Origin: a virus
Virus record (IMG/VR): IMGVR_UViG_3300028831_000595
Span: 1-46,046 of that record
Strand: one strand, 5' to 3'
DNA length: 46,046 nt
Shown in pieces: positions 2,265 to 46,046 of this stretch; the first letter of the stretch is position 1; each line of letters begins with the position of its first letter. A model generated the notes under the pieces. The model had not been told where the DNA came from. It did no database searches and saw only the letters and a list, made by a program, of their open reading frames with translations. A program made the translations under genes and the position numbers.

Positions 2265-2394
2265 TCTGTCCGCCGCACCCCATGGACGGCGCGGACGGCG
2301 CGGACGCAACCACCCAATTGCGCGGACGCGGACTCCACGGATGGGGCGTGAACGGCAAGGCGGAGACAATCTGGCGATTGCCGCTCAAGAACGC

Positions 2395-2423
2395 TTGACA
2401 CCGGCCGATATCGGGAGTAACGT
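2395..2423 (+). promoter_or_regulatory. Candidate rightward early promoter
   Basis: A perfect TTGACA (2395-2400) is followed after 17 bp by TAACGT (2418-2423), close to the vegetative sigma consensus. The first rightward gene starts about 40 bases downstream with the ribosome site CGAAAGG. This is the best promoter match seen in the window and probably drives the small early genes. Confidence 0.7.
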
Positions 2424-2463: not shown

Positions 2464-2781
2464 ATGTCCCGCATTCCCGCTCACCTTTCAGACGTCTCCC
2501 GGCGCGGCGCGGGCTCGCCCACCTTCACCGAACACCGCTACGCAATGGCGGTCGCTTGGCACAAGCGCCAGACCAACGCGAACAAGCACTTCCACAACCA
2601 GCACCGGGGGCACCAGCGCGTCGCCGGGCGCATCGCCCGGCTGGCGCACAGGCCCCGCTACGGCAGCACGGCCCCCATCGGCGCGTTCGGCATCCCCCCT
2701 ATGATGGGCGGATCCCCCTACGCGACCCGGGAGACCGGCTGGCACGCAGACGGGTGCCTTTGCCGCGCCTGCAGCCGCTAG
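2464..2781 (+). CDS. Hypothetical early protein, 105 aa
   Basis: First gene of the rightward arm. ATG 2464 follows CGAAAGG by seven bases. The product is basic and His-rich (HKRQTNANKHFHNQHRGHQR near residues 31-50). It ends in CLCRACSR, a CxCxxC cluster preceded by His, so metal binding is conceivable. No family is recognised. Small basic proteins in this position are often host-takeover factors, but nothing here proves that. Confidence 0.7.
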   Translation: MSRIPAHLSDVSRRGAGSPTFTEHRYAMAVAWHKRQTNANKHFHNQHRGHQRVAGRIARLAHRPRYGSTAPIGAFGIPPMMGGSPYATRETGWHADGCLCRACSR

Positions 2782-2870
2782 GTCGAAACGGCGCCAAAGC
2801 GCCGTCGATGCGTTACGCGCATCCTGACGAGACCGATTCTCCTCAGTCCCTCCCGCACGAAAGGCGAATC
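2782..2870 (+). promoter_or_regulatory. Intercistronic leader with two hairpins
   Basis: Two hairpins stand in tandem: ACGGCGC/GCGCCGT with a CAAA loop (2788-2805) and GATGCG/CGCATC with a TTACG loop (2807-2823). The next gene's ribosome site, ACGAAAGG, follows. Only a partial relative (GTCGAAA, 2783-2789) of the leader motif found in the later spacers is present. No T-run follows, so these are more likely RNA-processing or stability elements, or attenuators, than strong terminators. Confidence 0.6.
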
Positions 2871-3275
2871 ATGGGTATTCACTCCCGTACCGTCGTCGAC
2901 GGCATCGAGGACATCGACGCAGAGGCCTTCTTCCAAGGCTACGTTGACTGCGCCATTTGGGCATCGACGGCTCCCGATGGACAGTCGCTCGACACGCTCA
3001 TGTACGGCTCTGACGACATCACGGCCGAATCGCTGGATTCCATGCGCGCCGACTGCAATGACTTCGTGGAGGCGAACGCCGTCGACCTCTCCGGATTCGA
3101 CGCAGCCCGCGCTGGCCACGATTTCTGGCTCACCCGCAACCGGCACGGCGCGGGATTCTGGGATGGGGACTACCCGCAGGAGATCGGCGCCCGCCTGACC
3201 GCCGCCGCGCACGCCTACGGCTCGAGCGACCTCTACGTCGGAGACGACGGCTTCGTCCACGTCTCGCCCATCTGA
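2871..3275 (+). CDS. Conserved phage hypothetical protein with GAGFWD motif
   Basis: The 134-aa product starts at ATG 2871 after ACGAAAGG. It is acidic. Its C-terminal half contains DFWLTRNRHGAGFWDGDY (about residues 84-101), a motif I know from many small phage proteins of unknown function, followed by a short segment ending in VGDDGFVHVSPI. No catalytic residues can be assigned. The gene lies in the early cluster and is likely made soon after infection. Confidence 0.8.
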   Translation: MGIHSRTVVDGIEDIDAEAFFQGYVDCAIWASTAPDGQSLDTLMYGSDDITAESLDSMRADCNDFVEANAVDLSGFDAARAGHDFWLTRNRHGAGFWDGDYPQEIGARLTAAAHAYGSSDLYVGDDGFVHVSPI

Positions 3276-3362
3276 CCCATCGTCGAAACGCGCGGCAACG
3301 CCGCATCCGCAGGATTGGCATTCCTGCGCTGAATGAGACTGCCAGACACGAAAGGGAAACTC
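3276..3362 (+). promoter_or_regulatory. Repeated leader: CCCATCGTCG, two hairpins, CGAAAGG
   Basis: CCCATCGTCG (3276-3285) directly follows the stop codon. Two hairpins come next, GCGGC/GCCGC (3292-3304) and GCAGGA/TCCTGC (3309-3327), and then the ribosome site CGAAAGGG before ATG 3363. Same plan as the following spacers. Confidence 0.7.
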
Positions 3363-3605
3363 ATGCCTGCACCTTCCGCTCCCCGTCCCTCCCGCTCCCC
3401 CATGGGCGGGCTGCAGTGGAATCTCGGCTCCGACCGCTTCACGCTGCTTTGGATCGGGCCCGGCTCGACCCACCTTCACCTCGCCGGCGCATCGGTGCTC
3501 GTGCCCGTCGAGCCTGACCGGTACCGGGTTTGGGACGGTACGGAGAAGAGCGCCCGCAAGGCGGCCGCCGCGTTCATTGCCAACGGGACGCGGGAGGACG
3601 ACTAA
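3363..3605 (+). CDS. Hypothetical early protein, 80 aa
   Basis: ATG 3363 follows ACGAAAGGG. The product has a Pro/Ser-rich N-terminus, then a probable small beta-rich domain (LGSDRFTLLWIGPG and following residues), and a helical C-terminus ending in Asp residues. It has no membrane segment, signal peptide or recognised motif. Its coding status is supported by codon use and by the shared leader signals on both sides. Confidence 0.65.
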   Translation: MPAPSAPRPSRSPMGGLQWNLGSDRFTLLWIGPGSTHLHLAGASVLVPVEPDRYRVWDGTEKSARKAAAAFIANGTREDD

Positions 3606-3697
3606 CCCATCGTCGCCCATCCCGGGCAAGCCGGGCGCGCGTCATGGCGCGAATGGGCATTGCAGGATCCAAAACCCCGACTGACGAAAGGCAAATC
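3606..3697 (+). promoter_or_regulatory. Repeated leader: CCCATCGTCG and nested hairpin
   Basis: CCCATCGTCG (3606-3615) directly follows the stop. An outer stem GCCCAT/ATGGGC (3615-3620 with 3653-3658) encloses CCCGG/CCGGG (3621-3635). ACGAAAGG before ATG 3698 is the ribosome site. Confidence 0.65.
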
Positions 3698-4024
3698 ATG
3701 CCGAAGGTTTTCAGGACGCAGCGCGACGAATCTCTCGCGTTCCTGCGCGAAGAGCTCAAGCCCGGCGACACCGTTTACTGCATCCTGCGGCACGTCTCCC
3801 GTTCGGGGATGGTTCGCGACATCGCGCCCATCGTCTTTTCGGAGGGGCAGCCCCGATTCCTGTGGTGGCACGTTGCGAACGTGCTCGGCTGGCGCGCGAT
3901 GGGCGATGCGCCCGATGCGGTCAGGGTGAACGGCGCCGGCATGGATATGGGATTCCACCTGGTCTACACACTGGCGCATGTGCTCTTCGGCGACGGCTAC
4001 GCGCTCAAGCACCGCTGGCTCTAG
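3698..4024 (+). CDS. Hypothetical early protein, 108 aa
   Basis: ATG 3698 follows ACGAAAGGC. The product begins MPKVFRTQRDESLAFLREEL and contains VYCILRHVSRSGMVRDI (about residues 26-42). This resembles a conserved phage/bacterial hypothetical family in which a similar ISRSGMxR segment is followed by a small helical domain. The function is unknown to me. The C-terminal half has aromatic and Gly-rich segments (LWWHVANVLGW, GMDMGFHLVYTLAHVLFG) that might touch a membrane, but they are short. Confidence 0.7.
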   Translation: MPKVFRTQRDESLAFLREELKPGDTVYCILRHVSRSGMVRDIAPIVFSEGQPRFLWWHVANVLGWRAMGDAPDAVRVNGAGMDMGFHLVYTLAHVLFGDGYALKHRWL

Positions 4025-4159
4025 ACGGTTCCCTGCTCGAGCGCCCGGGCGCCATTTCCGGGCGCTTCATGGAGTGAATCGCTCTTCGCTTCGCTCAGCC
4101 CTCGGCAGGCATCCATGCCTGCCTCGGGTCCTACTGACCCATCGTCCGAAAGGCTTTCC
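4025..4159 (+). promoter_or_regulatory. Repeated leader with two strong hairpins
   Basis: AGCGCCCGG/CCGGGCGCT (4040-4066) and GGCAGGCAT/ATGCCTGCC with a 2-base loop (4104-4123) precede CCCATCGTC (4138-4146), which merges with the ribosome site CCGAAAGG before ATG 4160. Here the hairpins come before the motif, not after it. Confidence 0.65.
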
Positions 4160-4447
4160 ATGTCCGCTCTTGACGATTACCTCGCCCGCGGCGTTGCCCG
4201 ACACGGCGACAAGTTCGACCCGTCGGCGCTGGCCGATCAGTTCAAGCCCTACTTCGGCACCGGCAAGCGTATCCGTGTCCGCTTCAGCTACGGCGAGGAA
4301 CTGACGGGCACCGTCGGCGCAACGACGGGCTGGCGGCCGGCGTTCCTGCTCATGCGCCGATCGAACAGCCAAGGATCCCCGTGGCTCCTGGGGCCCGACG
4401 ACAAGATCGTCGCCGTCAAGCGCGGCCGCCACTACGTCGACGTCTGA
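4160..4447 (+). CDS. Hypothetical early protein, 95 aa
   Basis: ATG 4160 follows CCGAAAGG. The first 35 residues look helical and acidic. The rest looks like a small beta-barrel with conserved-looking Gly and aromatic residues (KRIRVRFSYGEELTGTVGAT, then a WLLGPDDKIVAVKR strand pair), reminiscent of SH3/Sm-type folds that bind RNA or peptide. That fold idea is inference. No named family is recognised. Confidence 0.65.
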   Translation: MSALDDYLARGVARHGDKFDPSALADQFKPYFGTGKRIRVRFSYGEELTGTVGATTGWRPAFLLMRRSNSQGSPWLLGPDDKIVAVKRGRHYVDV

Positions 4448-4541
4448 CCCATCGTCGGATCGCTGCTCACTGCTCCCGGGTTCGCCCGGGAGCAGACTGG
4501 AGCGATTGGACTCCACCCTCACCGCACGAAAGGAAACCCTC
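4448..4541 (+). promoter_or_regulatory. Repeated leader with 11-bp TTCG hairpin
   Basis: CCCATCGTCG (4448-4457) follows the stop. CTGCTCCCGGG and CCCGGGAGCAG (4470-4480, 4485-4495) form a perfect 11-bp stem closed by a TTCG tetraloop, the most stable hairpin in the region. ACGAAAGG precedes GTG 4542. Confidence 0.75.
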
Positions 4542-4976
4542 GTGTCCGTCAAGATCCCCGCCGTCGCAGCGGCAGCTCTGCTCTGCGGCAGCATCGCCGT
4601 CGGCGCCGGCCAGGCGAATGCCGCAACCGCGCGTATCAACCCCGTCGCAGACTCACGGGGCATCGGCACGGCCCTGGTCGGGGTCGGGCTGCGCCATGAC
4701 GAGGATTGCCGCTTCCGCATGGCGGCCGACGTCGGCGACACCTCGCCCGACGGCCGCATCTTCGAGGTCTGGCACACCCAGAACTACACCTTCAATGCCT
4801 GTGGCGCCGGCAACGCGACCTGGTACGAGGATGGCAGCGCGCTGGACTGGTTGAACCTGCGCTTCCCCACCAACCGCCTCCAGCACGGCCGCGCCGTCGT
4901 TCGCATCGCGATCGGCACCCGCAAGTGGGGCGGCGCCTGGTCCAACCACGTCTACGTGCGCACCTTCTGGCACTAA
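4542..4976 (+). CDS. Secreted protein of unknown function
   Basis: GTG 4542 is chosen because ACGAAAGG lies ten bases upstream, as in its neighbours. The 144-aa product starts with a clear Sec signal: VSVK, a hydrophobic core AAAALLCGSIAVGAG, and a likely cleavage site after QANA (about residue 27). The mature part has two Cys (near residues 57 and 86) that could form a disulfide, several Trp, and a beta-rich look. No catalytic motif is seen. A secreted protein among early genes is unusual; it could be a lysogenic-conversion or cell-surface factor, but that is speculation. Confidence 0.75.
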   Translation: MSVKIPAVAAAALLCGSIAVGAGQANAATARINPVADSRGIGTALVGVGLRHDEDCRFRMAADVGDTSPDGRIFEVWHTQNYTFNACGAGNATWYEDGSALDWLNLRFPTNRLQHGRAVVRIAIGTRKWGGAWSNHVYVRTFWH

Positions 4977-5095
4977 CCCCCATCGTCGGCGCGCCGGGCT
5001 CGAGGAGAGCTCGGCCGTCCGATCAGCCCGTGGCCTCGTGCTGCGGGCTGATCGGGCGTTTCGCCCATTGACCCATCGTCGAAAGGAAAGCCTCA
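4977..5095 (+). promoter_or_regulatory. Repeated leader, two motif copies and 11-bp hairpin
   Basis: This spacer has CCCATCGTCG twice, just after the stop (4979-4988) and just before the ribosome site (5072-5081, running into CGAAAGG). Between them CGATCAGCCCG and CGGGCTGATCG (5020-5030, 5044-5054) form a perfect 11-bp stem. It reads as a hairpin cassette bounded by the repeat. Confidence 0.75.
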
Positions 5096-5134
5096 GTGCA
5101 CTTCCGCCAGGACTACGACAGGCACGCGGACTGA
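5096..5134 (+). CDS. Twelve-codon leader peptide before the recombinase
   Basis: GTG 5096 stands ten bases after the leader's AAAGG and opens VHFRQDYDRHAD. Its stop TGA (5132-5134) overlaps the recombinase ATG as TGATG. The recombinase itself has no ribosome site of its own, so it is probably translated by reinitiation after this peptide. The evidence is geometric only. Confidence 0.5.
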   Translation: MHFRQDYDRHAD

Positions 5135-5781
5135 TGCGCGCGATCGCCTACCTGCGCGCGAGCACGAAGGAACAGGAGGATTCCGGCCTCGGACTGGACG
5201 CGCAGCGCGCCAAGGTGACCGAGGCCTGCCAGCAGCGCGCGTGGGAGCTGGTCGACGTCGCAACCGACGTCGCATCGGGCAAGAGCACCAACGGGCGCCC
5301 ATCATTCACGCGGGTGCTCGAGCGGCTCGACGCCGGCGAGGCGGACGTGCTCGTGGTCAGCAAGCTGGACCGGCTCAGCCGCTCCATGCTCGACTTCGCC
5401 ACGCTCGTGGAGCGCGCCCGCTCCAACCATTGGACCATCGTTGCGCTCGACCTGGGCGTTGACACCTCGACGCCCTCGGGAGAGATGCTGGCGGGGGTCA
5501 TCGCGCTCTTCGCCCAGTACGAGCGCCGGCTGATCGGCGAGCGCACCAAGGACGCGCTGGCCCAGGCTCAGGCGCGCGGCATCCGCGTGGGCAGACCCGG
5601 CGGCGGCGTCACGAGCCCGATCCCCAAGGAGGTGCGCGAGCGGATGCTCGCGATGCGCTACTCCGACCGCCTTTCCTTCGCTGAGATCGCCCGCCAGCTC
5701 GACGCGGCCGGCATCCCGACGGTTTCCGGCTCGCGCTGGAAGCCCGAGGTCGTGCGGAGGATCTGCCTGCGCGAGGGCTGA
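5134..5781 (+). CDS. Small serine recombinase (resolvase/invertase type)
   Basis: The 215-aa product has the N-terminal resolvase domain: YLRAS at residues 6-10 with the nucleophile Ser10, the SKLDRLSR loop (76-83) carrying catalytic Arg residues, and the long helix ending in YERRLIGERTKDAL. A C-terminal helix-turn-helix follows (FAEIARQLDAAGIPTVSG and after). It lacks the zinc-ribbon and coiled-coil extensions of large serine integrases. DNA inversion, resolution or a simple integration role are therefore all possible. No candidate att or hix sites are seen. Its ATG overlaps the leader-peptide stop. Confidence 0.9.
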   Translation: MRAIAYLRASTKEQEDSGLGLDAQRAKVTEACQQRAWELVDVATDVASGKSTNGRPSFTRVLERLDAGEADVLVVSKLDRLSRSMLDFATLVERARSNHWTIVALDLGVDTSTPSGEMLAGVIALFAQYERRLIGERTKDALAQAQARGIRVGRPGGGVTSPIPKEVRERMLAMRYSDRLSFAEIARQLDAAGIPTVSGSRWKPEVVRRICLREG

Positions 5782-5839
5782 GCGGCTCGGGAGGGTCTGG
5801 CCCTACTCCTATCCCTCCCCGCACCAAGGTAGGCACCTT

Positions 5840-5880
5840 AGAAGCCCTCTGAGCGCGTCAGGCTCAGGGGGCTTCTCCTT
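5840..5880 (+). terminator. Intrinsic terminator after the recombinase
   Basis: AGAAGCCCTCTGAGC (5840-5854) pairs with GCTCAGGGGGCTTCT (5862-5876), with one G-T wobble and a 7-base loop, followed by CCTTTT. It is the only hairpin in the early region with a convincing T-run, and it ends the small-gene operon. Confidence 0.8.
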
Positions 5881-5884
5881 TTGG

Positions 5885-5894
5885 CCCATCGTCG
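5885..5894 (+). repeat. Isolated CCCATCGTCG copy
   Basis: Last copy of the leader motif, here between the terminator and the -35 box of the XRE gene rather than next to a ribosome site. Confidence 0.6.
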
Positions 5895-5895
5895 G

Positions 5896-5924
5896 TTGCG
5901 CTCAGGTGGGAGTGGGGCGATAAT
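5896..5924 (+). promoter_or_regulatory. Promoter of the XRE regulator gene
   Basis: TTGCGC (5896-5901), 17 bp, GATAAT (5919-5924). The GTG start at 5931 lies six bases after the -10 box, so the transcript would begin at the start codon. No Shine-Dalgarno sequence is present, which fits a leaderless message. Confidence 0.7.
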
Positions 5925-5930
5925 CCGCTC

Positions 5931-6140
5931 GTGCTCATCAGAATGAACGGACCCAAGGTGCGAAGCCGACGCGAGGCGCTCGGCCTCTCGCGCGAGCAGC
6001 TGGCCGCCGAAACCGGGCTCGGCCGCGTGACGCTCTGGAAGATCGAGAGCGAGTCCCACGAGCACGGCTGCCAGCAGTGGATCGCCAAGGCCCTGGCCGA
6101 GGCGCTGGGCTCGCGGCTCGAGGATCTCGTCCGGCCCTGA
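5931..6140 (+). CDS. XRE-family helix-turn-helix regulator
   Basis: The 69-aa product is a single Cro/CI-type HTH domain: VRSRREALGLSREQLAAETG, then a recognition-helix region LGRVTLWKIES, and the closing helix pair ending LGSRLEDLVRP. It has no dimerisation or cleavage domain, so it resembles Cro or a small repressor rather than full-length CI. GTG 5931 is chosen from the leaderless promoter; ATG 5943 is possible. Next to the recombinase it suggests, but does not prove, a temperate or inversion-controlled lifestyle. Confidence 0.85.
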   Translation: MLIRMNGPKVRSRREALGLSREQLAAETGLGRVTLWKIESESHEHGCQQWIAKALAEALGSRLEDLVRP

Positions 6141-45843: not shown

Positions 45844-46046
45844 CGCCCTGCGCCTCGCGTTCACGCCGCATCTGGCGAATCTCGTCGTACACCTCCTGAA
45901 GCTCCGCGTCCTCCTTCCGGATGCGCTCCTCAACGAGGTCGATGCTCACCATCACGTCCTCGTTGGCGTTGGCGATGGTGCCGGGAAGCCAGTCGAGCAG
46001 CGCACCAAGCTCACTCCAGAACGGCGGCGTGATGACCTCGACGCCC
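45836..46046 (-). CDS. 3' part of the gene that runs off the left edge
   Basis: The frame enters at the right edge and ends at TGA 45836. On a circular map it completes the gene that starts at 310 (116 aa in all), ending EIRQMRREREAQGDA. Within the overlap it differs from the left copy by several residues (DW-LPG here against DY-PEG there), so the two ends come from different alleles. Confidence 0.7.
   Translation of the reverse strand, partial: GVEVITPPFWSELGALLDWLPGTIANANEDVMVSIDLVEERIRKEDAELQEVYDEIRQMRREREAQGDA
45877..46046. repeat. Right copy of imperfect terminal direct repeat
   Basis: Matches 1-170 without gaps: identical for the first 106 bases, about a dozen substitutions after that. 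Confidence 0.9.

Follow-up and report, generated by a model that had tools for sequence, protein, structure and literature searches.

Leaders repeated next to small early genes are found again and again in phages that are not related to each other, the well-studied start-associated sequences (SAS) among them. In cluster K phages, SAS are 13-bp elements, mostly running in one direction, which occupy the position of the ribosome-binding site and can take in the stop codon of the gene before; inverted repeats lie upstream of about half of the SAS, whose function is unproven (PMC3203893; PMC12699233). Two other families of phage repeats offer points of comparison: the cluster A stoperators, which are oriented repressor sites located mostly away from promoters (PMC6550527, PMC9283540), and the 17-bp repeats of cluster O, which are present in many copies in short intergenic regions and provide evidence for gene gain and loss (PMC4351075). 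The window analysed here carries a repeated motif whose copies are few, near-identical and contained in one operon, some of them followed by an intervening hairpin block and others not, so that this operon allows natural comparisons between translation control and repressor binding.

The window is a whole IMG/VR virus record of 46,046 bp, with a GC content of about 69%. Its termini, 1-170 and 45877-46046, share 94% identity over 170 nt, with the mismatches bunched at 107-114, so that the record may represent a near-complete, circularly closing genome; the identity would fit terminal repeats that have diverged, or a circular genome whose assembly combined variants. The leftward genes include the structural ones (terminase 45012-43489, portal 42579-40321), and the rightward genes include those for replication and recombination (a Cas4-like exonuclease, an HNH protein, a Sak4-like protein and methyltransferases); the early operon that bears the repeats is located at the head of the rightward block. 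Terminase relatives are distant, with at most 28% identity among the best phage matches listed, and none was found in IMG/VR; the phage is poorly known, its hosts being high-GC bacteria. Nine direct copies of GCGGACG lie within less than 200 bp (2135-2322) where the two gene blocks diverge, and this iteron-like array is a possible replication origin.

The motif CCCATCGTC has eight exact matches on the + strand of the record (3276, 3606, 3827, 4138, 4448, 4979, 5072 and 5885) and none on the - strand, all copies being confined to about 2.6 kb (3276-5893). Chance expectation for the whole window is 0.71, and none of 100 shuffles reached eight; thus the motif survived the check proposed in the first-pass annotation, namely that it might occur at random density across the genome. 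Seven copies are intergenic, where 0.006 are expected in 765 nt of spacer, and that annotation had likewise counted seven copies between 3276 and 5894; the eighth copy, at 3827, falls within gene 4 and is plausibly due to chance. Four copies had been placed directly after a stop codon: three of them abut the upstream stop (3276, 3606 and 4448), while the one at 4979 begins 2 nt past it. These four lie 60-100 nt 5′ of the next Shine-Dalgarno sequence (SD); the other two described as fused to the ribosome site are indeed so, at 4138 and 5072.

The aligned intergenic copies are CTGACCCATCGTCGA, CTAACCCATCGTCGC, CTGACCCATCGTCCG, CTGACCCATCGTCGG, AACCCCCATCGTCGG, TTGACCCATCGTCGA and TTGGCCCATCGTCGG, and the unit that recurs, (T)TGACCCATCGTCG(AAAGG), includes a TGA of its own also at sites with no gene end. 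A TGA precedes the copies at 4138 and 5072, though neither has a plausible gene end, the sole ORF ending at the 5072 copy (4706-5071) being one that overlaps gene 6; stop adjacency is therefore partly intrinsic to the motif. The 9-mer at the core of TGACCCATCGTCG is identical in the seven copies, while the neighbouring spacer sequence is unrelated between them, and the motif is asymmetric, with no dyad. The spacers at 2782 and 4025 have no motif at their start. The leader element is genuine, non-random and phage-specific. The features of the region are collected in Table 1.

Table 1. Features of the early operon and its downstream flank, with the fold stability (z) of the spacers
Feature	Position	Strand	z	Description
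Putative early promoter	2394-2422	+		TTGACA-17-TAACGT, 5′ of gene 1; read from sequence, no call in consensus scan
Gene 1	2464-2781	+		SD CGAAAGG at 2451; no motif upstream
Spacer 1	2782-2870	+	-3.2	starts GTCGAAACG, in part like the copy at 3276; SD 2858; two short hairpins
Gene 2	2871-3275	+		phrog_1915
Spacer 2	3276-3362	+	-0.8	CCCATCGTCGAAACG right after TGA; two hairpins; SD CGAAAGG 3349
Gene 3	3363-3605	+		no family match
Spacer 3	3606-3697	+	-1.0	motif right after TAA; nested hairpins; SD 3685
Gene 4	3698-4024	+		phrog_12365; holds the chance-like 3827 copy
Spacer 4	4025-4159	+	-2.9	hairpins with perfect stems of 9 and 8 bp; next CTGACCCATCGTCCGAAAGG, running into gene 5 start
Gene 5	4160-4447	+		phrog_8217; about 50% identity to Mycobacterium phage genes, e.g. 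Traaww1
Spacer 5	4448-4541	+	-4.8	motif right after TGA; 11-bp perfect hairpin within outer stem; SD 4527
Gene 6	4542-4976	+		N-terminus signal-peptide-like (by eye); no phage relative
Spacer 6	4977-5095	+	-4.1	motifs 4979 and 5072 flank hairpin block with 12-bp perfect stem; second fused to SD 5080
12-codon ORF	5096-5134	+		SD at 5080; overlaps gene 7 by ATGA
Gene 7	5134-5781	+		small (215-aa) serine recombinase of the resolvase/invertase type
Terminator-like hairpin	5840-5880	+		followed by CTCCTTTTGG; stem 5860-5874
Motif copy	5885-5894	+		between terminator-like hairpin and putative promoter
Putative promoter	5896-5924	+		TTGCGC-17-GATAAT; by eye, no call in scan
Gene 8	5931-6140	+		HTH protein, 69 aa; possibly leaderless

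Among the + strand spacers, the GC-rich stem and T run of an intrinsic terminator are combined only in the 5860-5874 hairpin, between genes 7 and 8; a consensus scan of the spacers found no sigma-70 promoters, and the whole window gave no Rfam match at gathering score. Gene 7 has no evident SD of its own; the 12-codon ORF that precedes it has a strong one and is likely a leader peptide coupling gene 7 translation. CGAAAGG has 11 matches genome-wide, against 4.7 expected, seven of which serve as SD, one for each early start between 2464 and 5096; its presence at nearly every start, as first described, is thus confirmed for all seven starts up to the recombinase. GAAAGG is able to pair with the anti-SD CCUUUC, and the best interpretation of CGAAAGG is a strong SD of the ordinary kind.

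The stability of the spacer folds was scored as z against dinucleotide shuffles, with 28 coding segments for comparison (mean z -0.24). Five spacers are more stable than their shuffles, those beginning at 2782, 4025, 4448, 4977 and 5782 (z -3.9 for the last one), while the spacers at 3276 and 3606 are no more folded than shuffles. Perfect hairpins had been reported for every spacer: hairpins do occur in all of them, but stability is clear in only five out of seven, and perfect stems of 8-12 bp are found in three. The accompanying observation, that the hairpins vary while their flank stays constant, holds, and no common hairpin sequence is present beyond the flanking motif and the SD; as the hairpins between these two are unrelated, swapping is a possible history.

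Genes 2, 4 and 5 match PHROG families with relatives in unrelated phages, the genes of the early operon being mosaic and mutually unrelated; among the retrieved loci, only genes 2 and 4 co-occur, in six of them. The gene 4 homologue of Gordonia phage Dalilpop and the gene 5 homologue of Mycobacterium phage Traaww1 both lie in tightly packed operons that have no such leader, which indicates that the leader is a feature of the phage more than of the genes. An exact 17-mer search of IMG/VR returned two contigs only, both with the same chance match, and a gapped module pattern gave only single or coding-like matches in IMG/VR and, among the matches listed, in GTDB genomes. Protein relatives of genes 4 and 2 lie in diverged loci where the motif is absent, and no relatives of genes 5 and 7 were found in IMG/VR; the full motif set is absent from all other viral, phage and bacterial records searched. 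A 65-nt segment of gene 2 (3107-3171) has 86% identity to a Brevundimonas jumbo phage gene, which is unusually high for so different hosts.

Some of the other loci contain repeats of their own. In L063, a viral locus bearing gene 4, GACGAAAGGA is found ahead of starts. Microbacterium phage Shocker (MW507126.1), which also has gene 4, was rejected as a parallel, its CCTGTAAAGG being a different thing, found 23 times genome-wide, on both strands and in genes as well as spacers. The viral record IMGVR_UViG_3300015360_000003 contains hairpin modules of about 50 nt at stop codons (3266, 3583, 3906, 5155, 5914, 9252 and 9980). Their paired foot, AAACTTTCAAC...GATTGAACGTTT, is conserved, and the apex belongs to either of two families, GGCCAGG/CCTGGCC or ATTCGCTA/TAGCGAAT; only one contig within IMG/VR has these modules, which show the combination of same flank and different hairpin more clearly than the window does. 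In IMGVR_UViG_3300012988_000001, a repeated AGTACTTG(C/A)...TATAAT is found between small genes; these elements are probably strong promoters that form one family and hardly differ from each other, and the same hairpin leader, GCATAGGGGG...CCCCC, comes after several of them.

The motif set is tentatively read as a phage-specific intercistronic leader of the early operon, acting as SAS-like punctuation at the translational or mRNA level, a reading to which we give somewhat less than an even chance. It is favoured by the strand bias, the clustering in early spacers and the adjacency to stops and SDs; by the stability of the predicted folds, seen in five early spacers out of seven and not in neighbouring coding DNA; and by the two SD-fused copies, together with the gene 4 and gene 5 homologues devoid of the leader. 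A single transcript would cover genes 1-7, with one promoter at its head and the terminator near 5880 at its end; on this mRNA the hairpins would part the cistrons, insulating or stabilising each reading frame, and the SD before each gene would provide independent initiation. The 9-mer would fall within the footprint of the ribosome finishing the upstream gene, and it may tag the RNA, whether for binding by a protein, for a nuclease or for pairing with the SD nearby, and so link the expression of neighbouring genes; the hairpin sequence would be free to drift, since only the presence of a hairpin would matter.

Also in favour of this reading, the motif is weakly complementary to the ACGAAAGG region, CC..UCGU(C) pairing with (G)ACGA..GG; the duplex energy averages -7.1 kcal/mol, a value that 3.0% of the letter permutations reach, as do 2.4% of the 10-mers taken from the window. 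When the coding flanks are included, this pairing is predicted only in the 3606 module, with a probability of about 0.9, and not in the 3276 and 4448 modules. The unpaired probability is 0.39 for the motif and 0.29 for the rest of the spacers, a difference that is not significant (p 0.08). A mini-hairpin, UGAC-CCAUC-GUCG, can form in most copies; its covariation gave no signal, and 80% of flank shuffles equal it. Pairing of the motif with 16S rRNA was also considered and rejected, as an actinobacterial-type CGACGACGGG segment would be one base off the exact complement, which is about chance level. Post-transcriptional control by the motif is plausible; its complementarity to the SD is weak (p about 0.03), being strong in a single module. 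The leader reading is weakened by spacers 1 and 4, which have no motif at the stop, and by the copy at 5885, which is situated beyond the apparent terminator, where an RNA function is harder to see.

The main rival, which we consider rather unlikely, is that the copies are stoperator-like DNA sites, in which a phage repressor (the gene 8 product or another protein) would bind asymmetric sites of 9-13 bp and block elongation. Like the cluster A stoperators, the motif is asymmetric, oriented with transcription and mostly away from promoters; here it is also mostly intergenic and restricted to the early region; oriented non-promoter repressor sites are known from cluster A phages (PMC6550527). 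One copy adjoins the putative promoter of the HTH gene, as autoregulation would predict, and the location of this copy, at 5885, between the terminator and that promoter favours a DNA role, at least in its case. However, the sequence differs from that of the stoperators, the putative early promoter at 2394-2422 has no copy, there are seven copies versus 20-30 in cluster A, and the link to SDs, including fusion with them, is unexpected for a transcriptional site. The 13-bp stoperator GGTGGMTGTCAAG itself has nothing better than 2 mismatches in the window, these matches being scattered over both strands; at up to 3 mismatches the pattern is somewhat over-represented, 32 versus 21 expected, also on both strands. 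Moreover, gene 8 encodes a short protein of the HTH_3/HTH_31 type; the usual targets of such proteins are palindromes, and the motif is not palindromic. A large integrase was not recognised among the proteins scanned.

It is unlikely that the motif is instead a non-regulatory recombination joint, the short repeated leaders allowing gain, loss or swap of small genes or hairpin blocks. Such an origin would fit the two direct copies that bracket a gene-less hairpin block (4979-5080), the TGA kept at 4138 and 5072 with no gene end, as after gene loss, and the Sak4-like annealing protein and Cas4-like exonuclease encoded by the phage; moreover, cluster O phages gain and lose small genes at their 17-bp repeats (PMC4351075). 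The common stretches, however, are only 9-18 bp long, no relative with an alternative junction was found, and a serine recombinase would find no dyad in the motif, so that the adjacent gene 7 is no evidence by itself. Improbable as well, and next in order, is that ordinary parts were simply multiplied by recent copying, with uniform SDs, ordinary hairpins and a functionless leader spread by local duplication: CGAAAGG is a normal SD, with GACGAAAGGA before the starts of L063, two spacers fold no better than shuffles and the genes are unrelated and mosaic, but copying alone is insufficient to explain a 9-mer that is invariant in seven copies next to unrelated spacer sequence. Very doubtful is a new class of control module in phages of high-GC hosts, in which a stop-linked RNA box, acting across an interchangeable hairpin, would pair with the next ribosome site or recruit a factor to it, so that the translation of each small gene would be gated by termination of the preceding one. 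Cassette sites of the attC type, suggested by the partly complementary ends around variable hairpins, were rejected by inspection, as the motif has no integron core boxes.

Returning to the preferred reading of an intercistronic leader, the comparison with described repeats is as follows. The cluster O repeats are likewise repeated elements with copies in intergenic regions, but they are palindromic, unoriented and genome-wide, whereas the window motif is asymmetric, oriented and early-only. The parallel with SAS drawn in the first-pass annotation stands for form, orientation and contact with stop codons and SDs, and not for sequence: the cluster K SAS GGGATAGGAGCCC has two matches in the window at up to 2 mismatches (both with 2, and both outside the early region), and 15 at up to 3 mismatches, versus 19.7 by chance. 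As in cluster K, a short asymmetric repeat occurs in one orientation (mostly so for SAS), mainly outside the structural genes and sometimes with inverted repeats alongside. Unlike SAS, the copies are few and lie within 2.6 kb, and the motif is at the stop end, with the hairpin block before the SD in four junctions; the inverted repeats of the cluster K ESAS (17-bp) share a consensus, whereas the window hairpins all differ. The SAS-like position at the ribosome-binding site is held by the copies at 4138 and 5072, and the copy at 5885 is upstream of a putative promoter. By position, the leader is most similar to SAS, from which it is set apart by its location at the stop end, the variable inserted hairpins and the low copy number.
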